Shown here in pieces: positions 39,196 to 49,631 of a stretch of DNA of 64,000 nucleotides (position 1 is its first letter; each line of letters opens with the position of its first letter). The DNA is from Rubeoparvulum massiliense. GTDB lineage: Bacteria > Bacillota > Bacilli > Rubeoparvulales > Rubeoparvulaceae. Made by a program: the position numbers and the translations under genes. Location of the stretch: NCBI RefSeq assembly GCF_001049895.1, contig NZ_CVPE01000004.1, forward strand, positions 1 to 64,000, in the 5' to 3' direction. The notes beneath the pieces are model-generated. The model was not told where the DNA came from. It saw nothing but the letters and a program-made list of their open reading frames with translations, and searched no databases.

Positions 39196-39744
39196 CTAAT
39201 CCTCTAATGATGTTCCACAATGATCGCAGAAGCGGGCATCTAGTGCCACCTCTTCACCGCATTGAGGACAGAAGCGCTTCTCTGGTAGGGTACTACCACA
39301 AGCCTTACAAAATCGAGCATCCCCCTCATTCACAATCTCACACTGTGGGCAGATAACTCCTATTTCTCCTTGATCAGCTGAAGATTCTTTCAATCCTGCA
39401 TGAATCGCTTTCGCCACCTGTTTTACGCCTTCCTTGCCCTCATCTGCCACATAATTGAAAGCATCCTTCGCAACCGGAGACATTTCCCGAGCTTTGTAAC
39501 GAGCGATTGCTCCCATGTAAGCAAACTGTGTCATTCCTAACCCAATCAGTGTTAGAAACCCCCCGATGATAAAATTACGTAAAGGATTACGGAAGCCATC
39601 ATCAGTAAATGGATCAAATCCAAAGGGATTCATAAAATGCCTAATTAATATGATGATACCTGTAATGAGTAGGATCGGACCAACAACACGCAAAACCCGT
39701 CTCAGCTGCACATGTTCATCGGAGATAAATTTTTTTCTATTCAT
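39196..39744 (-). CDS. Membrane protein with two C-terminal zinc ribbons
   Basis: A 182-residue protein with two membrane segments (about 22-38 and 57-77) and a soluble tail with four Cys pairs: CPQC, CKAC, CPQC and CDHC, that is two zinc ribbons in tandem. A similar plan (membrane plus double zinc ribbon) is common in Firmicutes with no known function. It is 30 bases past the end of the ger operon and reads in the same direction; it may be a late member of it. Role unknown. Confidence 0.78.
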   Translation of the reverse strand: MNRKKFISDEHVQLRRVLRVVGPILLITGIIILIRHFMNPFGFDPFTDDGFRNPLRNFIIGGFLTLIGLGMTQFAYMGAIARYKAREMSPVAKDAFNYVADEGKEGVKQVAKAIHAGLKESSADQGEIGVICPQCEIVNEGDARFCKACGSTLPEKRFCPQCGEEVALDARFCDHCGTSLED

Positions 39745-39773: not shown

Positions 39774-40895
39774 CTACTCTATACGTACATCCTTCTTTCC
39801 TGTTTCACCTTCTTCTTCTCCATTCTTCCCCTGCTTCCAACTCATCGCAATCAGCAAGAGGAGTGGGATAATAATTCCGTAGGTAGATGAATAAGCCCAA
39901 AAGATCTCCTGCGTGAAAAAGAGCAGGTAGGTATAGTTAGGAAACATCACAGGGCTAAGTACAATAAGAAGCATTGCAATCGGAAAACGAAGAGCATGAA
40001 TTGACTGCATACCTAGAATCTGCTTAATCCCTTGGAGAAGAGCGAAAAAGCATAATGTTAATTTAATAAATAGACTAATCACCCAGATTACCGCAATGAC
40101 TACCTCCACACGGGTTGCAATGTTCCCAATGACAATATGTTGTGCCAATCGATAGCTAGGGAAATTTACGCTTCCTGTCTCACCAGGTCCCATTACCCAG
40201 ATCGCAAAGAAAGTAAAGAGGAGTAAGATAAAACCTCCAATAGCTGTTCCAATCATCAGCGCTTTTGTAACTTTTTTATTATTATGAACAAAAGGTGTAA
40301 TAGAGAGAAGAACAATTAGTTCCAAGAAGGGAAAAGCAAAAAAATTAAGTGTTGCATGTAGAATTGACTTCATGTCATTCTCTAGCATTGGGAGCATTTC
40401 ATCCAGCTTAACCTCAGGAAGTAAAAAAAGAAAAAGCAAAATTAACAAGGTTAATACACCTGGTAAAAAGAGCTCCGCTGTTCGAGCAAGACTCTCGATC
40501 CCATATGTTATGGCAAGGAGTATAACCAACATAAAAATTAGATAAATTGCATAGATTGGCGTCTCAGGGGTTATCTCTGTTAGCATGAAGACCCCCATAT
40601 CATTGAGAGCTAATGCTGATAGAATAAAGAAGTAGAACAAATATTGTATGGTGAAAAAACTACCAAAAAACGGTCCAAAACCCGTAAGCATCGCCTCAAT
40701 CAATCCTGCGTTACTTATTTTTTTATTCAAGTAGCCATATAGACAAACCATAAGGAGACTAAGACTGAATGCCAAGAGACCAGCTATCCAGCCATCCTGC
40801 TCTGCCATGCCTATCAAAACAGATGGTGCAAAAAGGATCGAGCTTCCTGTAGTAAAAAAGAGGACAAGAATCGTAAATTGACGTATATTGATCAA
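39774..40895 (-). CDS. GerB-family spore germination permease (third copy)
   Basis: A 373-residue APC-like permease with about ten membrane segments, beginning INIRQFTILVLFFTTGSSILF, the hallmark start of the GerAB/GerKB family (INIRQ then TxGSS). B subunits bind the germinant amino acid or sugar. An upstream ATG at 40922 has no site, whereas GGAGGGG lies nine bases before TTG 40895, which also aligns the start with the other two copies. Last gene of the ger operon. Confidence 0.9.
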   Translation of the reverse strand: MINIRQFTILVLFFTTGSSILFAPSVLIGMAEQDGWIAGLLAFSLSLLMVCLYGYLNKKISNAGLIEAMLTGFGPFFGSFFTIQYLFYFFILSALALNDMGVFMLTEITPETPIYAIYLIFMLVILLAITYGIESLARTAELFLPGVLTLLILLFLFLLPEVKLDEMLPMLENDMKSILHATLNFFAFPFLELIVLLSITPFVHNNKKVTKALMIGTAIGGFILLLFTFFAIWVMGPGETGSVNFPSYRLAQHIVIGNIATRVEVVIAVIWVISLFIKLTLCFFALLQGIKQILGMQSIHALRFPIAMLLIVLSPVMFPNYTYLLFFTQEIFWAYSSTYGIIIPLLLLIAMSWKQGKNGEEEGETGKKDVRIE

Positions 40896-40956
40896 TTGAC
40901 TGTTCCCCTCCTCACTAGACATATTATATAAAAGGACCACAGATAATTGATTATGG

Positions 40957-42042
40957 TTACACTTGTTTACTCTTCAGATGTGCAATCCCATAGAGAAGAA
41001 GTGGCAGAACCGTTCCCATTGTAATTACATAGGGCCACCAATAATTACGGGAAAAGTTAAGTAAATATGCAATACTCGGAACTGCAATCGGTATTATTGT
41101 TACAAGCAAAATAGATAGCGGAAGGCTAGCTGTCTCAATTCGTTGCAACTTGAAAAGCTGACTTATTCCTAAGAAACATGCATACATGGCTAAAGTAAGC
41201 TTTATAAAAACAGATAGCATCCAAGTCGCTCCAATGGCTACCTCGATCCGAGTCAAATACTCTCCAATGACAATTTTCTGGGCCAACATATATGTAGGAA
41301 ATGTACTAATTGCAGTAAATTCTGGGCCAAGCACCAAGAGAGAGAATAAAGCGATCAAAATCAGAACAACTCCACCGATAGTAGATCCTACTACCATCGC
41401 TTTGCCCACCTTCTCCTTATCATGAATAAAGGGAGAGAACATCATGAGAACCACAAGATCATTAAATGGAAATGCATAGAAATTGAGGGTTGCATAAAGA
41501 ACTGGCTTAATATCCTGATTTAATATAGGTAGCAACTGATCACCTTGGACTTGGGGAAGCAGTAAGACGAACATCAACAGGATAAGAAGCATCGTAGCTG
41601 GAAAAACCATCTCGATTGTTCGGGCAATGCTTTCAATGCCATAGCTGACGGCAAGGAGTACTACAAGTATCATGATGATATAAATTACCCAAATGGGGGT
41701 CTCAGTCATTATTTGCGTCACGATAAAAGTCCCCATATCACTGGCAACAAGGATACTTAAAATAAAAAGATAAAAAAGGTAAAGAATCGTCAATAGGGTC
41801 CCCCAAAATGGGCCAAGCATCTTGAGCATAAATTGTATCATGCTTAGATCACCGAAACGCTGCATCATCGTTGAAAAAAAATAAGCTAACATCATTCCCA
41901 TACCAAGACCTAACAAGCCGGCAAGCCAACCATCCTGTCTGGCAGTTCCGATTAAGTATGAGGGAACAAAGAGAATGGAGCTTCCGATGGTGAGCATGAT
42001 CACAAGTAGGGTAAATTGACGAATATTGATTTTCTCCATCAT
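40957..42042 (-). CDS. GerB-family spore germination permease (second copy)
   Basis: A 361-residue permease, about ten membrane segments, opening EKINIRQFTLLVIMLTIGSS. It shares the family repeats TETPIWVIY and YGIESIARTIE with the flanking copies. AAGGAGGAGG precedes the ATG. It begins two bases after the stop of the first copy. Three different B subunits in one operon may widen germinant recognition. Confidence 0.93.
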   Translation of the reverse strand: MMEKINIRQFTLLVIMLTIGSSILFVPSYLIGTARQDGWLAGLLGLGMGMMLAYFFSTMMQRFGDLSMIQFMLKMLGPFWGTLLTILYLFYLFILSILVASDMGTFIVTQIMTETPIWVIYIIMILVVLLAVSYGIESIARTIEMVFPATMLLILLMFVLLLPQVQGDQLLPILNQDIKPVLYATLNFYAFPFNDLVVLMMFSPFIHDKEKVGKAMVVGSTIGGVVLILIALFSLLVLGPEFTAISTFPTYMLAQKIVIGEYLTRIEVAIGATWMLSVFIKLTLAMYACFLGISQLFKLQRIETASLPLSILLVTIIPIAVPSIAYLLNFSRNYWWPYVITMGTVLPLLLYGIAHLKSKQV

Positions 42043-42044
42043 TT

Positions 42045-43148
42045 TTATCCTCCTCCTTGTTTCGAACTTCGCTTCCTAAATTGAAATAGAATCCAAAGTA
42101 CTAGAGGATAAAAAAATCCCAATGTAATCTCAAATAGCCAGAAATAATGAAGATTAACGCTTTGGATATACATTTGGCTCGGTATCATGAGAAGAGTGAA
42201 GCTAATCAGTAAGAATGAAAGCGGGAAAGTGAGCGTCTTTTGAGACTTTAGAGATAGGAGCTGTTTTAAGCCGATTACTACTGCATGAAGAGTGATAAAC
42301 AGCTTTATAAACAGTCCGATGAGCCAAATGATGGCAATAAGTGCCTCAACACGCGTTAAAAAATTCCCGATGTTTACCTTCTGTGCTAATAGATACGTGG
42401 GATATGCACTCCGTGCCGTTATATCTGGTCCTAGAACCGCAATGGAAAGAAAGATCAGAATAGTCAAGACGAGCCCACCAAAAAATGTTCCATAAAGGAA
42501 TGCGTAGGCCAATTTTTTCTGATCATGAACTTGAGGCGTAAATATAAGAAAGGCAGAGATCTCACAGAATGGGAATGAGAAGAAGAGAAGGCTCCCATGA
42601 ATGATCGGTTTCACTCCTTCAGCAACCACTGGCTTAATATTCTCCAAATCCACCTCCGGTAAGACAAATAGGATGAGGATAATTAGCACAGAGCAGTAAC
42701 TCGGGAAGAATAGTTCAGTTGTACGTGCAACACTCTCCACTCCATACCGCAAAGCAAGCAACAAAATGAACAAAAAAAGCGTATAAATCGCTATGATAGG
42801 CGTCTCAGGGATAATCTGTGATACCATGAAGAAACCCATATTTTCTAGAATTAACCCCGATAAAATATAGAGATAGAACAGGTAGAGGAAGGAAAAAAAA
42901 GTCCCTATATATTTTCCCATCAACTTTCTTGTAAATTGCACGATGGTTTGATTCGGAAAACCGATTGCCAATTGCATAAAGAGATAGACCGCTAATAGAC
43001 CAGCACCTAGTGTAATTATTCCTGCAAGCCAAGCATCTTGTTTTGCTACTGTAGTGATGTAAGCTGGAGTGAGTAGAATGGAACTCCCTACAGTAAACAT
43101 AAAGATGAGCATGGTTAGCTGACGAATATTGATCGATGTTTTTTCCAT
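42045..43148 (-). CDS. GerB-family spore germination permease (first copy)
   Basis: A 367-residue permease, about ten membrane segments, opening TSINIRQLTMLIFMFTVGSS. PETPIIAIYTLFLF and YGVESVARTTELF match the other two copies. It follows the small D-subunit gene by 23 bases. GerB proteins sit in the spore inner membrane with GerA and GerC. Substrate not predictable. Confidence 0.93.
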   Translation of the reverse strand: MEKTSINIRQLTMLIFMFTVGSSILLTPAYITTVAKQDAWLAGIITLGAGLLAVYLFMQLAIGFPNQTIVQFTRKLMGKYIGTFFSFLYLFYLYILSGLILENMGFFMVSQIIPETPIIAIYTLFLFILLLALRYGVESVARTTELFFPSYCSVLIILILFVLPEVDLENIKPVVAEGVKPIIHGSLLFFSFPFCEISAFLIFTPQVHDQKKLAYAFLYGTFFGGLVLTILIFLSIAVLGPDITARSAYPTYLLAQKVNIGNFLTRVEALIAIIWLIGLFIKLFITLHAVVIGLKQLLSLKSQKTLTFPLSFLLISFTLLMIPSQMYIQSVNLHYFWLFEITLGFFYPLVLWILFQFRKRSSKQGGG

Positions 43149-43171
43149 TTTCCCATCCTCTTTTCACCATC

Positions 43172-43405
43172 CTATTGGAGCCAGCCAAGAATTCGAGACG
43201 TAATGGGCTCATAGATTTTTACAATCAGCTCTAAAGGATTAAAGTAGTGAGTATGTTTCGCTGCAAGAATGCTTACCCCCACTGCTAATCCTAAAAATAG
43301 ATAGAAGAAGCGAATGTCACGTTGATGCCCTTTCTTTTTTAGCAATGGAACCTCGATCAAGGCCAACACCACAGCGATTGTTAGGATAATTACGCTTGTT
43401 CCCAT
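43172..43405 (-). CDS. Germinant receptor D-subunit-like small membrane protein
   Basis: A 77-residue protein with two membrane segments (about 4-20 and 28-46) and a short amphipathic tail. Small two-span proteins encoded inside ger operons are known in Bacillus as D subunits that tune receptor function. The ATG overlaps the gerC stop (TAATG) and the gene lies between gerC and the first gerB. Assignment rests on size, membrane plan and position. Confidence 0.75.
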   Translation of the reverse strand: MGTSVIILTIAVVLALIEVPLLKKKGHQRDIRFFYLFLGLAVGVSILAAKHTHYFNPLELIVKIYEPITSRILGWLQ

Positions 43406-44607
43406 TATGAACCTCCCATCTCCTGCAAGAATGGATTGACCTCTGTGCCTGTTCGACGTAAATGTACATCGGCGGTTACTTCCACATCCATCTTTGTGAA
43501 GATTTCATCCCAATCTTCCTTCACCTCCTTGAAATACTTAGGATACTTCTTATAGGTCTTATCACTAAAGCCAATCACATCGGCTTTTAACCCTTTTGCT
43601 GCTCCTATCGATGACTCAATCATCCTAATGATCTCCATTGCCATCCTTTTCTCTACCTGGTGAATGGTGGATAATTTCGCAAGATCGATAGCACAATCCG
43701 TTTCCGCAATGGAACCATCGGCATACACATGGATCTTTCCCGATAACTTTCCTTCTTTTAACTGTACATCTACAGTAGATCTTGCTTTAATCACTTCCAT
43801 TGCCATCACTCCCTGCTTAGGGCAAGGGGCACTAATAATCGTACTTTTCATTTGATCCTTTGCAAATGTGATCCCTTTACTCTCCTCTTGGTTTAACCAT
43901 CCGATCAATTTCCCTTTTTTCAGAACACCCAAACCTACATATTCTACAATGGTTGCAGGATCACTACTCTCCACATTTTCTCGTTTTTCACCTGTAGAAA
44001 GGTCACCTTGAAAATGGATCCCGCTCAATGTCGTACCCTTCTCAGTACTGACCAAATCAGAGATTAGATCAGATAAATAAACCGTCTGTGTTGAACCCCA
44101 AGATTCTGCTGAAGTTTTTAATGATGCAAACATCTTTTGTGCAGGAATCTTATCGATGGGTGTCATGACCCCAAGCACCTCTTCAGCACGAACACCATGA
44201 GAAAGCACAATGTAAAAATCGCCTCGAATCTCGTGATCACGAGCAAGAAAATCCAGAACCTTCGTCACCCCATCTTCCTTCGCAAGCTCTTCCCCAATAA
44301 TTACGATCCGAAGGTGCGACCAATAACTACGTCGGGGAATTTTCTTCGTCATGTCACGCACTGCTTCGAGGACGGTCTTCCCTGTTCCTCGGTAAGTGAC
44401 GATGGGCGCTCGTCCTGCTGCTGAACGCTGGGGAGAGATTTCGCCTGGACTAATCACTTGAAGTGAAAGTAGAACCTCATCATCACTTTTATCCAATCCT
44501 GCTGCCACAATAATGGCTAATTCATTGAGCTCTCTACTGCTCCAGCAGCCAGTAAGACCTAGAGATACTATTAAGAAAATGAGTATTATCCAGATACCTC
44601 TACGTAT
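43405..44607 (-). CDS. Spore germination lipoprotein GerC, apparently starting at ATA
   Basis: The frame encodes a GerC-type lipoprotein of 400 residues: hydrophobic signal, lipobox LTGC, then the germination domain (GEISPQR, GRAPIVTYRGTGKTVLEAVRDMT). No ATG, GTG or TTG exists upstream of the lipobox; the first ordinary start, GTG 44508, would remove the signal. A perfect AGGAGG (44616-44621) sits eight bases before ATA at 44607, overlapping the end of gerA by eight bases. The rare start is inferred. GerC stabilises the GerA/B complex in the spore inner membrane. Confidence 0.88.
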   Translation of the reverse strand: MRRGIWIILIFLIVSLGLTGCWSSRELNELAIIVAAGLDKSDDEVLLSLQVISPGEISPQRSAAGRAPIVTYRGTGKTVLEAVRDMTKKIPRRSYWSHLRIVIIGEELAKEDGVTKVLDFLARDHEIRGDFYIVLSHGVRAEEVLGVMTPIDKIPAQKMFASLKTSAESWGSTQTVYLSDLISDLVSTEKGTTLSGIHFQGDLSTGEKRENVESSDPATIVEYVGLGVLKKGKLIGWLNQEESKGITFAKDQMKSTIISAPCPKQGVMAMEVIKARSTVDVQLKEGKLSGKIHVYADGSIAETDCAIDLAKLSTIHQVEKRMAMEIIRMIESSIGAAKGLKADVIGFSDKTYKKYPKYFKEVKEDWDEIFTKMDVEVTADVHLRRTGTEVNPFLQEMGGS

Positions 44608-46486
44608 TTTCGCTACCTCCTGTCCTCTCTTGATCTTGCGTTCCTTTTGTCTTCCCTTGTAAATTTTTATTTTGACTATGCGATGTTTGCCCCTGCCGAA
44701 TGATGTTCTTCCGATTATAGCTATGAGGACGCTTATTCATCATCCAGAGGGGAAACCGAAAGATGGTATCCTTTTGGTCAGTAAGATTGATGGGAGCCAA
44801 TGGTGACATATAGGGTATCCCAAACGAGCGGAGATGACTGAGATGAAGAAACGTCGCCAATAACCCCATTACAATTCCAAATAGACCAAAGGTAGCGGAT
44901 AAGAAGATAAACCCAAATCGTAAAACACGGATAGGGAAGCTCATGGCATAATAAGGTATCATAAAGGTTGTGATCGCAGTTAATGAGATCACAATGACCA
45001 TCCCTGCCGAGATAACCCCTGCCATTACCGCAGCCTCACCTAAAACCAAAGCGCCCACGATGGAGATGGCTGAACCAATGGCCTCCGGCATTCGAACCCC
45101 TGCTTCCCGTAAGATCTCGAAGGTGATCTGCATAAAGATGGCTTCAATCACAGCAGGGAAGGGAACACCTTCCCGTTGTGCTGCAATACTGATCAGGAGG
45201 GTTGTTGGTAACATCTCTTGATGAAAAGTAGTAAATGCAACATAGAGAGCTGGAAATAGCAAGGAAATAAAGAATGCGATGAAACGCAGAGAACGGATAA
45301 AGCCATAGTCACCAATCGTATAGTAATCTTCCGCGTCTTGAATGAACTGTATAAATAAGGTAGGCGCCAAGAGGACATAGGGTGTTCCATCCACTAAGAT
45401 GGCTACTTGACCTTCCAACAAACCGGCAACCACCGTATCGGGACGTTCCGTATTAAAAATGGTTGGGAAAATTGTAAAATATCGATCCATGATTAGTTCT
45501 TCAATATAGCTACTATCAAGAATGCCATCGATATCAATCTGCTTGATCCGTTTACGGACATCATCAACCAGTTGAGGCTCCGCTACACTATTTAAGTAGA
45601 TAATTCCTACATCGGTCTGGGTTAGACGACCAACCTTCAACAGTTCAAAGCGTAGATCTGGTGTTTTTAGGCGGCGGCGAACAAGACTCATGTTGGTAAC
45701 CAACATCTCTGTAAAGCCTTCATGGGGGCCACGCACCACATTTTGTGCTGTGGGCATCTCTACGGCTCGATGCTCCATTTCTGAGGTGGGAGCAAGATAC
45801 GCATTCGTATCATTTTCGATGAGGATTGCCGTATTGCCATTTAATACTTCTTGAACTAGCTCGTTGAATTGCGTAACCTGCTTGATTCCTGCTATGGTTA
45901 GCTGAAGCTGCGTGGTACTTCTCTGAGTTGAAGCTGATCCATCTTCTCCTGTTTTCTTTTGTTTCTCCTGCTTTCCATCCTGCTCATTTTCTGCATTTTG
46001 CTCCCCGTCACGCCGAAGGTTTTTAATCTTGCGCGTTCGTTTGTTCCATTTACGTACTCCTTTTTCATACTCATGATTTTGTTCAGTACATTCCGCTTGA
46101 CTTTGATTTTGAACAGAGGACTGCCCCTGACCTGCACCACCTTGATTGAGTGAGTCGATGTATCGGAAGATATCATTCATCACGTAATGGATGTACTCTT
46201 TTCCCACCAATCCATCTAAATAGATAACCCCCACCTTCTCCTGCCCTGTACCATCCTTCAACATGGTCATCACTAGATCTGGTGTATTTCCGAGAATGCT
46301 CTTAAGCTGTTGAAGATTCTGCTGAAGGCTGCTCGCCAGTTCCGCTTGTGCAGCAGATGAATTCTTACTTTTCTCTTGATTCTCTTGATTCCCTTGATTC
46401 CCTTGAATTCCTCCCTGCTGAGATGATTGATTACGCTGAGAGCCCTGCTGCTTGCCTCTTTTTCGTGATAATAGTCGTCCAAACAT
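44600..46486 (-). CDS. Spore germination receptor subunit GerA
   Basis: A 628-residue GerA-family protein. It has an N-terminal soluble domain, a low-complexity Gln/Asn-rich start (about 10-45) and an unusual Lys/Arg/Glu/Gln-rich insertion (about 120-195) before the conserved EVLNGNTAIL and REPEH-like region (GPHEGFTEMLVTNMSLVRRRLKTPDLR), then 5 to 6 membrane segments. GerA opens the germination response on nutrient binding. The ATG 46486 follows GAGGTG; a GTG at 46495 is an alternative. First gene of the operon gerA-gerC-D-gerB x3. Confidence 0.93.
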   Translation of the reverse strand: MFGRLLSRKRGKQQGSQRNQSSQQGGIQGNQGNQENQEKSKNSSAAQAELASSLQQNLQQLKSILGNTPDLVMTMLKDGTGQEKVGVIYLDGLVGKEYIHYVMNDIFRYIDSLNQGGAGQGQSSVQNQSQAECTEQNHEYEKGVRKWNKRTRKIKNLRRDGEQNAENEQDGKQEKQKKTGEDGSASTQRSTTQLQLTIAGIKQVTQFNELVQEVLNGNTAILIENDTNAYLAPTSEMEHRAVEMPTAQNVVRGPHEGFTEMLVTNMSLVRRRLKTPDLRFELLKVGRLTQTDVGIIYLNSVAEPQLVDDVRKRIKQIDIDGILDSSYIEELIMDRYFTIFPTIFNTERPDTVVAGLLEGQVAILVDGTPYVLLAPTLFIQFIQDAEDYYTIGDYGFIRSLRFIAFFISLLFPALYVAFTTFHQEMLPTTLLISIAAQREGVPFPAVIEAIFMQITFEILREAGVRMPEAIGSAISIVGALVLGEAAVMAGVISAGMVIVISLTAITTFMIPYYAMSFPIRVLRFGFIFLSATFGLFGIVMGLLATFLHLSHLRSFGIPYMSPLAPINLTDQKDTIFRFPLWMMNKRPHSYNRKNIIRQGQTSHSQNKNLQGKTKGTQDQERTGGSENT

Positions 46487-46573
46487 CGCATTCACCTCGC
46501 TTCATGCTCTTCTGTCTTAAATAGCTTGCCTCATTTCCATTTTGTTCATTCTTCCCCGCTCTTCACCAAAGAG

Positions 46574-46663: not shown

Positions 46664-47317
46664 TTAGGGATTATTGCGCAGTTGCTCCGCATGGAAGGTG
46701 AAATCAAAGACAAAGGTATCACCTTGCAATTGATTGCTTCCGCTAATGTCTAAAGCGGCTTCAAAGGTGATATTGACATCTCCACCATCTGCTACAGCTA
46801 AGATCGTTGGGATATTTACATAACCATTGAGGAGACCTTCTAATGAGCCATCATACAGTACGATATTGGCAGCGGGATAGAGTACTTTAATATTCATCTT
46901 CTCAATAAACTCTTCATAGGCTGGACCTGATGTGAGGCCAGCTGGATTTACATTGGCTTTCAGTTGGGTGATTTTGATATCAAGACTTCCTTCATTAATT
47001 AGGTACATCGCTCGTGTTGCCTTATCGCCAGGGGCCCAGCCTCCGAGGGCTTCAGCACCAGGTGGTGCGTAAGGGTTCAGCGTCGTATCGTAGGGGAATT
47101 TTCCAGTTGGATCAGACGCCGCAGAGTAGAACACGGGACCAGGAACTGTATCACCCATATTTCGCTCATGTCCGAGAATAACTGTACCCGCTTGGAAGTG
47201 ATTATTGGCATTCACAATATTATCCGTAAAGAGTGCCATAGTCCCACCAGCTACTGCCACAACCAAAGTAAGCATCAAGCCCATTACCACTAGTAAGCTT
47301 TTCTTATTCTTCTTCAT
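46664..47317 (-). CDS. TasA/CalY-family secreted fibre protein (second copy)
   Basis: A 217-residue secreted protein with a SipW-type signal peptide: long hydrophobic core, then TMALFTDN followed by ANNHFQAGTV, the typical sequence at the mature N terminus of TasA and CalY. The beta-rich mature part is like the amyloid matrix protein family. Cleavage is expected by the SipW encoded upstream. It lies after the shorter copy, behind a hairpin, and so may be expressed at a different level. Biofilm or spore-coat role inferred. Confidence 0.88.
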   Translation of the reverse strand: MKKNKKSLLVVMGLMLTLVVAVAGGTMALFTDNIVNANNHFQAGTVILGHERNMGDTVPGPVFYSAASDPTGKFPYDTTLNPYAPPGAEALGGWAPGDKATRAMYLINEGSLDIKITQLKANVNPAGLTSGPAYEEFIEKMNIKVLYPAANIVLYDGSLEGLLNGYVNIPTILAVADGGDVNITFEAALDISGSNQLQGDTFVFDFTFHAEQLRNNP

Positions 47318-47333
47318 GAAGTTGCACCTCCAG

Positions 47334-47358
47334 AAAAAGGGTGGGTTACCCCACCCTT
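47334..47358 (-). terminator. Intergenic hairpin between the two TasA/CalY-like genes
   Basis: A nine-bp stem AAGGGTGGG/CCCACCCTT (47337-47345 and 47350-47358) with a T run on the minus strand. It could partly terminate after the first copy or protect its mRNA end, altering the ratio of the two products. Confidence 0.55.
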
Positions 47359-47396
47359 ATTTCATTGATTATTGGTTTTAAACAAGGTTGAAAGAA

Positions 47397-47906
47397 TTAG
47401 TTCCAGCTAATCGGACCTGTGCCACCTGGATTGGTGTTATTGCGTGCTTGCACAGCAATGATCTCTACATCTACAGTGCCAGTTGCACCTTGATACTCAT
47501 TGCCTGCTTCCAAGGGGAAATAGTATTCCACAGCGAAATCAGCAGTGCCGCCTGCAGGAATCTTCACAGCATCACCTGAGATATTAATTTCAAGCGGATT
47601 TGCTCCAGTAAAGAGGGCTCCAGTTCCTGCGTAATCATCTACCTTTACCCATGCGTCCAAGGTGCCTCTATTTTCGACACGTAAGGTTGCAGATTCACGA
47701 TCGCCAGGTGCGAGGTTATCGTAGTACAGCGTATGGTGGAAAACAGGACCTCCTGTCACATCCTCAATAGCTACTGTTCCAGCAGTAAAGGTATTGTTGG
47801 CATTCGTTGTTTCATCAGTGAATAATGCGAACACACTACCTGCTACTAGCATGGTTCCTAATGCTGTTGTTGCTAAAGCCATACCTACTTTTTTCTTAAC
47901 ATTCAT
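47397..47906 (-). CDS. TasA/CalY-family secreted fibre protein (first copy)
   Basis: A 169-residue secreted protein with a SipW-type signal, GSVFALFTDE then TTNANNTFTAGTVAI. The mature part has the beta-strand pattern and LAPGDRESATLRVEN segment of camelysin/TasA proteins, which form extracellular fibres. It follows sipW after a 118-base gap and precedes the second copy. Confidence 0.9.
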   Translation of the reverse strand: MNVKKKVGMALATTALGTMLVAGSVFALFTDETTNANNTFTAGTVAIEDVTGGPVFHHTLYYDNLAPGDRESATLRVENRGTLDAWVKVDDYAGTGALFTGANPLEINISGDAVKIPAGGTADFAVEYYFPLEAGNEYQGATGTVDVEIIAVQARNNTNPGGTGPISWN

Positions 47907-48024
47907 CGTTCAACCATTCCCCTTTCACATATACACTCAATGTATTGTGGTTTTCCCCCTGGAGTTGAGAAGTATTTGGGCCCTTAACAATACCCTCCCT
48001 CTCCAGAGTGAAAATTGATAACGA

Positions 48025-48609
48025 TTAAGAATTGGCTAATTTCTCTTGCTCCTCTGAAGCATTCTCCTTATTATCCTCTTTGGTAAAGAGACGCCAAATC
48101 GACCAAAATTGACTCAGAACTAAGAAGATTCCTGGAATAAATAGTAATAGAAAAATCCCGACTTTTGTCTTCATAAATGCGAGGAATTGCCCGATGTAGG
48201 GGATAGTTATGTTGGCATATTTTCCCACCACCCTATCATGTGCCACTGGAGAGGGATCAGGGACATCGTTGTTATCACCTTTTGTAACATAATAAATTCC
48301 TTGTTCCGTCTCGTTCACTTCAATGATTCGATGGGTAATCAGGATGTTCGGGTCATCTGCAGAACGGAAGGTGATCACATCGCCTAATTCATATTCAGTT
48401 TCATTGGTATGCATTTTTATTGCAATTATGGAGCCTGTTTGGATACTGGGTTCCATTGAGCCTGAGAGAACTGACATGACTTCATGTCCCAGAATGCGGG
48501 GAGCACTCCCAGTAATCTTGGAATACCCTACTTCAATTGCCATGGTAATCAGCAGAAAAATAAACAACCAAAAAGTGACACGTTTAATCCACGACCACCA
48601 TCTATTCAT
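48025..48609 (-). CDS. sipW: ER-type signal peptidase I SipW
   Basis: A 194-residue membrane signal peptidase with an N-terminal segment (about 10-30), catalytic Ser51 in SGSMEP, and His93 in the place of the usual Lys, within NILITHRI; this Ser/His pair defines the ER type. A second segment is near residue 150-170. SipW processes TasA, CalY and TapA, all of whose likely substrates surround it. It starts 12 bases after the TapA-like gene ends. Confidence 0.95.
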   Translation of the reverse strand: MNRWWSWIKRVTFWLFIFLLITMAIEVGYSKITGSAPRILGHEVMSVLSGSMEPSIQTGSIIAIKMHTNETEYELGDVITFRSADDPNILITHRIIEVNETEQGIYYVTKGDNNDVPDPSPVAHDRVVGKYANITIPYIGQFLAFMKTKVGIFLLLFIPGIFLVLSQFWSIWRLFTKEDNKENASEEQEKLANS

Positions 48610-48620
48610 AATTCCCCTCC

Positions 48621-49580
48621 CTATCCATCTCCATTTCCTTTCGGTTCATCGAATAGATTATCATCATCTGGTTTCTCACCTATTTGCTCCTCATCTCCCT
48701 GACCATCTTCCTTTGGGTCAATGGTCATTTCATCGATAGGATTGATGATTGGAGGCTGTACTTCACCAGGAGGTGGTAGGACTGGTTCAATCCCTAACTC
48801 AGGAGTAGGATCACTCCCTAATTCATCAGGCGGTTCTTCACGAGGTGATTCCTCAACAGGAGGTTCCTCAATGGGTGGTTCTTCTTCTGGGGGTATCTTA
48901 CCATCTGGAGGTTCTTCTACTGGAGGTAGTTCTCCGACTGAAGGCTCCTCGCTAGGTGGCTGCTCTTCCAATGGTGGCTGTTCCAACTCTGCTGCTTTCT
49001 TGGCTTCTTCCTCCAAACGGATGATCGCCAGACTAAGCATCTCTTCAAAATCCAGTGCCATACGTTCTAATCTAGTCACGAGTTGATCCACATCATTCTG
49101 AATCACTTGCGCTCTCTCATCGACTGCACGTACATTTCGGAGCAGACGATGTGCTGAGTGCGAATCATCAAGCTCTACTTCTTCCTCCGCTCGTTCAACA
49201 TAGCTGTGAAAACGTACAACCATTGCATCCACATCACTTTGTAAAAGATATGCTTCTCTCACAACCACACGTAACGAGGAGATCGCACGCTCCCCCGCTT
49301 CCACGTCATCATTTGTCGTAATGCTTGGAAAATCAGCTTGGGAGTATATTGTTCTTTCCAATTCCTGTAGTTTTGAGCGCTTCTCCTCAAGTTCTTCCTC
49401 CAGGACCGATGGGAAAACAAATGCCGTTTTTAATTGCCCAGCATCTGCTTCATGATGAGTGGTCAACAAGGCAAATGAGCTCGAACTTAGCTGAGCTAGT
49501 AGTAAAGCAACTCCAGCAACGCCAAAAAAAGCCACAATTCGCTTCCGCCAACGCTTCAATTCTTTGTAATAGGAGTTCAT
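48621..49580 (-). CDS. TapA-like (DUF4047) matrix accessory protein with Pro/Glu-rich tail
   Basis: A 319-residue secreted protein. A signal peptide ends SSSFALLTTHHEADAG, the TapA/YqxM-type (DUF4047-like) SipW signal. Residues about 60-195 are coiled-coil, and about 200-319 are dominated by PPxEEPP repeats, which should form an extended linker or wall-spanning stalk. TapA helps assemble TasA fibres in B. subtilis. GGAGGGGA before the ATG 49580 sets the start. First gene of the matrix operon. Confidence 0.8.
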   Translation of the reverse strand: MNSYYKELKRWRKRIVAFFGVAGVALLLAQLSSSSFALLTTHHEADAGQLKTAFVFPSVLEEELEEKRSKLQELERTIYSQADFPSITTNDDVEAGERAISSLRVVVREAYLLQSDVDAMVVRFHSYVERAEEEVELDDSHSAHRLLRNVRAVDERAQVIQNDVDQLVTRLERMALDFEEMLSLAIIRLEEEAKKAAELEQPPLEEQPPSEEPSVGELPPVEEPPDGKIPPEEEPPIEEPPVEESPREEPPDELGSDPTPELGIEPVLPPPGEVQPPIINPIDEMTIDPKEDGQGDEEQIGEKPDDDNLFDEPKGNGDG

Positions 49581-49631
49581 ATTCCCCTCCATCGTGTGAG
49601 TTGATCTGGCTATGTCTGATTGACTAAACCC

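Follow-up and report, generated by a model that had tools for sequence, protein, structure and literature searches.

A germinant receptor operon with one A, one C and three tandem B subunit genes in Rubeoparvulum massiliense

Can a single pair of germinant receptor A and C subunits serve several nutrient-sensing B subunits? The question is raised by an operon on the minus strand (46486 to 39774) of the 64,000-nt stretch of DNA analysed here (the window), for which an earlier note had proposed that one GerA/GerC is shared by several ligand-binding permeases. B subunits are described as the nutrient sensors in the accessible text of PMC8617281, and in that of PMC13170314 the Ger receptor is modelled as a channel gated by nutrients and built from five or six A-B-C(-D) protomers, in which B sits where germinants would be received. 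The claimed gene order, gerA-gerC-D-gerB-gerB-gerB, was borne out by the open reading frames together with Pfam, so that more than one intact B stands beside one A and one C. gerA (44600..46486, minus strand as all genes of the operon) codes for the channel (A) subunit of 628 aa (PF03323, 581 bits), for which ATG 46486 is the best choice of start. It is followed by gerC (43405..44607), coding for the lipoprotein (C) subunit of 400 aa with an apparent AUA start, whose product matches PF25198, PF05504 and TIGR02887 (280 bits) and carries two Spore_GerAC domains at 121 and 142 bits in Pfam. After the D-subunit gene (43172..43405), which codes for a small membrane protein of 77 aa recognized with an iterated profile, come the B subunit (nutrient sensor) genes gerB1 (42045..43148; 367 aa; PF03845, 193 bits), gerB2 (40957..42042; 361 aa; 182 bits) and gerB3 (39774..40895; 373 aa; 186 bits). 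The start of gerB3 is best placed at TTG 40895, which is better than GTG 40940. All three gerB products score as Spore_permease above the PF03845 cut-off over nearly the whole profile and without stops, and by Pfam and NCBIfam the A and C proteins, like the three Bs, are firm members of germinant receptor families. Two of the gerB genes do lie two bases apart, as had been claimed, gerB1 ending at 42045 and gerB2 starting at 42042; the gap between gerB2 and gerB3 is 61 nt, and a purine-rich Shine-Dalgarno-like stretch precedes each gerB. We considered gerB3 as a transcription unit of its own and rejected this, as the 61-nt gap holds no terminator-like or coding-strand promoter-like site. In the N-terminal domain of the gerA product we also observed a low-complexity insertion rich in Q, N and K (about 46160-45930, ~60-70 residues), which exceeds those of the relatives scanned.

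The start of gerC deserves attention. The mechanical ORF call places it at GTG 44508, and this start was ruled out because a lipoprotein signal lies in frame upstream of it: the frame read upstream of GTG 44508 gives IRRGIWIILIFLIVSLGLTGCW, and the LTGC lipobox of GerC, which lies upstream of the listed ORF, is reached when reading from AUA. There is no ATG, GTG or TTG before the lipobox, back to the preceding in-frame stop, which leaves ATA 44607 (44607-44605), 7 nt after GGAGGT (44620-44615), as the one suitably placed start. An ATG, GTG or TTG was found within 40 codons before the lipobox in 62 of the 65 GerC genes of the surveyed loci, and the window gerC is the only one of the 65 without such a start, L107 and L110 being unscored with a lipobox outside the search pattern. 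Either AUA initiation is real, or the base at this position is mutated, or the assembly is in error there.

The surroundings of the operon were also inspected. A weak sigma-G-like site, GAATG-18-CAAGCTA (46522..46551, minus strand), lies ahead of gerA with 10 of 12 matches to what we take to be the sigma-G consensus; the minus strand of the 64-kb window holds 218 sites that are equal or better, and this candidate promoter thus appears to be no more than chance. Between a TasA-like gene and gerA, at about 46606-46570, an AGGACGG...CCGTCCT element followed by a T run was seen by eye and is likely a terminator; our terminator scan, with its loop limit of 8, did not list it. Further upstream on the same strand (46664-49592) are genes for two camelysin/TasA-like proteins, a SipW-like signal peptidase and a proline/glutamate-rich protein, which by their sequences make up a biofilm-matrix-type cluster. 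Downstream, a gene for a small zinc-ribbon membrane protein (39196-39744, same strand) starts 31 nt after gerB3. We rejected it as a seventh cistron: apart from its own sequence, the open frames of 72 loci hold a single weak match to it (E 1.5e-4, L115), so it is not a conserved partner of the operon.

The 77-aa protein has no match in the Pfam or NCBIfam libraries. Its position and size are those of the published D subunit, a membrane protein of ~75 aa in or next to ger operons in the accessible text of PMC4661057, the window gene coding for 77 aa between C and B. In addition, the iterated profile built from this protein recovered the same ORF in most related operons, where it likewise separates C from B.

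The three GerB proteins are clearly divergent, as the earlier note had stated, with pairwise identities of 40, 43 and 47%. They are intact and retain the conserved residues of the family. At the DNA level gerB1-3 are 52-55% identical and no 90-nt window exceeds 0.72 identity, which rules out recent gene conversion among them. According to the accessible text of PMC8617281, GerAB senses L-alanine in an APC-type pocket for which G25, V101, L199, G200, T287 and Y291 are named. B1 is confidently predicted to be an APC-fold permease, since its AlphaFold2 model (pLDDT 91, pTM 0.90) matches AdiC, ApcT and GkApcT (5oqt) in the PDB; by sequence, B1 found no match among solved structures. For the pocket alignment we used what we take to be the GerAB sequence, in which the six named residues were found at those positions. 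Against this presumed reference, B1, B2 and B3 agree in the G25, V101 and T287 columns (G/G/G, L/L/L and K/K/K, respectively) and differ in the L199, G200 and Y291 columns (C/N/L, E/D/E and T/A/C, respectively), the alignment near L199/G200 being possibly off by one residue. A ligand change among GerB1-3 is possible. Across 17 multi-B loci, some of them non-independent and with L112 and L073 excluded for their non-tandem Bs, the mean frequency of differences between tandem Bs was 0.00 at G25, 0.56 at V101, 0.54 at L199, 0.38 at G200, 0.33 at T287 and 0.69 at Y291, and 0.56 in the same count over 362 columns; the GerAB mutagenesis positions are thus not enriched for tandem-B differences in these loci. 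Furthermore, the GerAB pocket positions did not stand out when the alignment was scanned for columns in which tandem Bs differ and orthologs agree. The T287 column, the equivalent of a reported alanine-pocket residue (TM8 of B1), holds Lys or Arg in all 90 B proteins of this receptor lineage, and the G200 column (TM6) holds Glu in 61 of the 90. Conceivably, these residues make the pocket a charged one or take the place of a sodium site.

How did the three Bs arise? A phylogeny of the GerB proteins recovered them as a single clade, (B1,(B2,B3)), with SH-aLRT values of 99 for the whole clade and 98 for B2/B3 in a tree of 97 rows, and of 99 and 97, respectively, under the C20 mixture model with 81 rows, a quick tree without bootstrap from which 16 long or near-duplicate rows had been removed. 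Because they form one clade, the tree shows that gerB1-3 are tandem copies that arose in this lineage, one ancestral B having been duplicated twice, and the copies are old enough for the proteins to be only 40-47% identical now. Other multi-B operons present different histories: in the tree, the two Bs of the Paenibacillus ACDBB operons belong to types that lie far apart, in families f4 and f17 B1 and B2 are ortholog groups across genomes (support 100), and L095 and L096 each hold Bs from distant parts of the tree within one locus. Since these origins differ, the phylogeny argues that extra Bs have been gained repeatedly, by at least two modes of origin across Bacilli.

Of the 398 genomes of the class, 85 gave matches to a profile of the three Bs (E<=1e-60), and these belong to 39 of 145 genera. 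We compared 72 loci, comprising 60 regions from 52 of the 85 genomes, with preference for high scores and different genera, 10 named loci, the second ger locus of this genome and the window. Sixty-two chains in these loci carry both A and C, and their number of intact Bs was one in 41, two in 14, three in 2 (the window and L095), four in 1 (L042) and none in 4; L042, from P. contaminans, is arranged B+ACDBBB, with one of its four Bs upstream. L087 also holds four Bs and falls outside the 62 chains, as a contig end cuts the locus before A. These counts agree with the statement that most ger operons have one B, in a sample selected for likeness to the window Bs, from which no frequency among ger operons at large can be taken. 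Genes of this receptor lineage normally follow the order ACDB; additional Bs turn up repeatedly, often as ACDBB and in another genome as ACDBBB. Plasmid records with a match to B2 number 84, Priestia accounting for 70; four of the 84 were inspected (pBM700, F16, Cytobacillus spongiae and P. cellulosilyticus), the P. cellulosilyticus stretch carrying no annotation. The Priestia megaterium F16 plasmid (L121, 1-9107) reads A-C-B-B-B, one gene, then a fourth B, and is related to GerU; the Cytobacillus spongiae plasmid reads A-C-small ORF-B. We also observed orphan D-B pairs (L080, L104, L114) and lone B genes (L074, L079, L097, L102) of the same lineage in stretches without A or C, which would therefore need an A and C from elsewhere. 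In L062 and L085, B genes at the ends of related operons are split into two frames and are probably decaying copies or sequencing errors.

Selection was estimated on the operons of relatives. In three Paenibacillus species with ACDBB, dN/dS lay at 0.07-0.08 in the A genes, 0.22-0.30 in the C genes, 0.09-0.12 in B1 and 0.24-0.26 in B2, and with values of 0.09-0.26 both Bs of these operons are under purifying selection. The ratios in f4 and f17 were lower than or similar to these and rest on saturated dS (>1.5); 4 of the 28 comparisons were incomputable owing to saturation, and the 12 Paenibacillus values are the firm ones.

Operons of this kind have been described before. The accessible text of PMC5083711, published in 2016, reports gerX type 4, 'gerACxBBB', in Clostridium botulinum Group III, which like the window operon has A, C, a small protein (74 residues) and three co-clustering Bs, although its host belongs to another class of Firmicutes; the small protein is said there to be without homology outside Group III, and its likeness to ours is one of description. 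The same text proposes that new niches may become open to strains with several GerXB, and because of this operon and this proposal the sharing idea of the earlier note is not new; both the layout and the shared-sensor idea are already in print. In B. (Priestia) megaterium QM B1551, the GerU/GerVB system of pBM700 also has one A, one C and two adjoining Bs (A-C-B-B), within the same wide B lineage as the window Bs, but 213 nt separate its Bs, no D gene is annotated between C and B, and its B copies are 80% identical and form a clade separate from ours. For B. megaterium, the accessible text of PMC5935672 reports that GerUA and GerUC work or interact with a GerB encoded apart from them. The Paenibacillus ACDBB operons (L039-L041) and the B+ACDBBB operon of P. 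contaminans resemble the window operon in order, lineage and B identity (35-40%), whereas their two B types lie far apart in the tree and the three of the window form one clade. Finally, the gerXB-XA2-XB2-XC2-XB operon of C. botulinum Group I and the tetracistronic operon of C. sporogenes share extra Bs beside one A and one C, but have an A-B-C core with flanking Bs and, in the accessible text of PMC4161481, no mention of a D subunit. With gerXA interrupted, multi-B operons of these two clostridia had no role or a role in rate only, according to the accessible text of PMC4161481 and PMC5083711. A literature search that lay mostly outside subscription papers found no survey of triple or quadruple B operons in Bacilli, and their recurrence across Bacilli is perhaps what is new here.

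With respect to the use of the three Bs, the genome codes for 2 GerA proteins and 4 strong GerB proteins, three of the latter in this operon (four weaker GerB matches, in open frames of 464-481 aa, were left out of this count), and the GerD scaffold gene is present. With 2 GerA against 4 strong GerB proteins, it is most economical to suppose that several Bs are served by one A/C, and this part of the earlier proposal is retained as likely, so that the proposal is supported in part. The purifying selection on both Bs of the Paenibacillus pairs and the recurrence in relatives of A-C-D followed by one to four Bs speak for it, whereas the clostridial multi-B operons with no role or a rate role, and the pocket-equivalent positions without enrichment for paralog differences, point the other way. 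As the phylogeny shows, the ancestral B of an A-C-D-B operon was duplicated twice in tandem, leaving an operon that encodes one A, one lipoprotein C, one small D and three intact APC-fold Bs. We consider it fairly probable that B1, B2 and B3 all assemble with the same A and C, as suggested by the analogous GerU/GerVB of Bacillus megaterium. By the same analogy, the resulting receptor variants would respond to different nutrients or with different sensitivity, and the three Bs would probably widen the range of nutrients sensed. Each A oligomer could then contain one kind of B or a mixture. Protomers bearing B1, B2 and B3 on the same A and C might share one pentamer or hexamer and integrate several nutrients, as the five- or six-protomer models (accessible text of PMC13170314) and the joint encoding of three Bs would allow; we nevertheless regard such mixing as unlikely, for the GerUB/GerVB precedent requires alternative partners only. 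Its fuller form, a heteromeric receptor with up to three nutrients per channel and a subunit balance partly set by weak AUA initiation of gerC, is similarly doubtful, and the accessible text of the literature searched held no demonstration of a heteromeric multi-input Ger channel.

The extra Bs could also be of little consequence, one B being functional and the others dosage extras or in the course of being lost. The disrupted Bs of L062 and L085 are consistent with this, as is a C. botulinum Group I extra-B operon without phenotype (accessible text of PMC4161481), but all three window Bs are intact and have diverged to 40-47% identity without stops, and relatives with a pair of Bs retain each of the two from species to species, which makes redundancy or decay improbable. 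That some of the Bs serve instead the A and C of the second ger locus of this genome (G000:C6, order A-C-B) is suggested by the existence of that locus; the window Bs, however, are 20-22% identical to its B and group together and with the Bs of ACDB operons, and we consider this partnership very unlikely. The same low probability applies to a crippled operon in which gerC has no efficient start codon and the extra Bs are irrelevant: the missing ATG, GTG or TTG before the gerC lipobox, the sole such case in the survey, speaks for it, whereas the GGAGGT ahead of the AUA is perfect and the 400-codon gerC frame shows no other defect.

The three Bs on a shared A and C thus remain our preferred reading of a real, intact and somewhat unusual example of an already described operon type. 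With Ger receptors now modelled as oligomeric channels that nutrients gate, the way in which a spore integrates signals from several nutrients has become a topical question. Operons in which several old and intact Bs accompany one A/C lend themselves to testing whether B is a plug-in sensor and whether Bs mix in a channel. With two A and four B proteins in its genome, this operon is a clean case for such tests, even if its layout is not the first of its kind.
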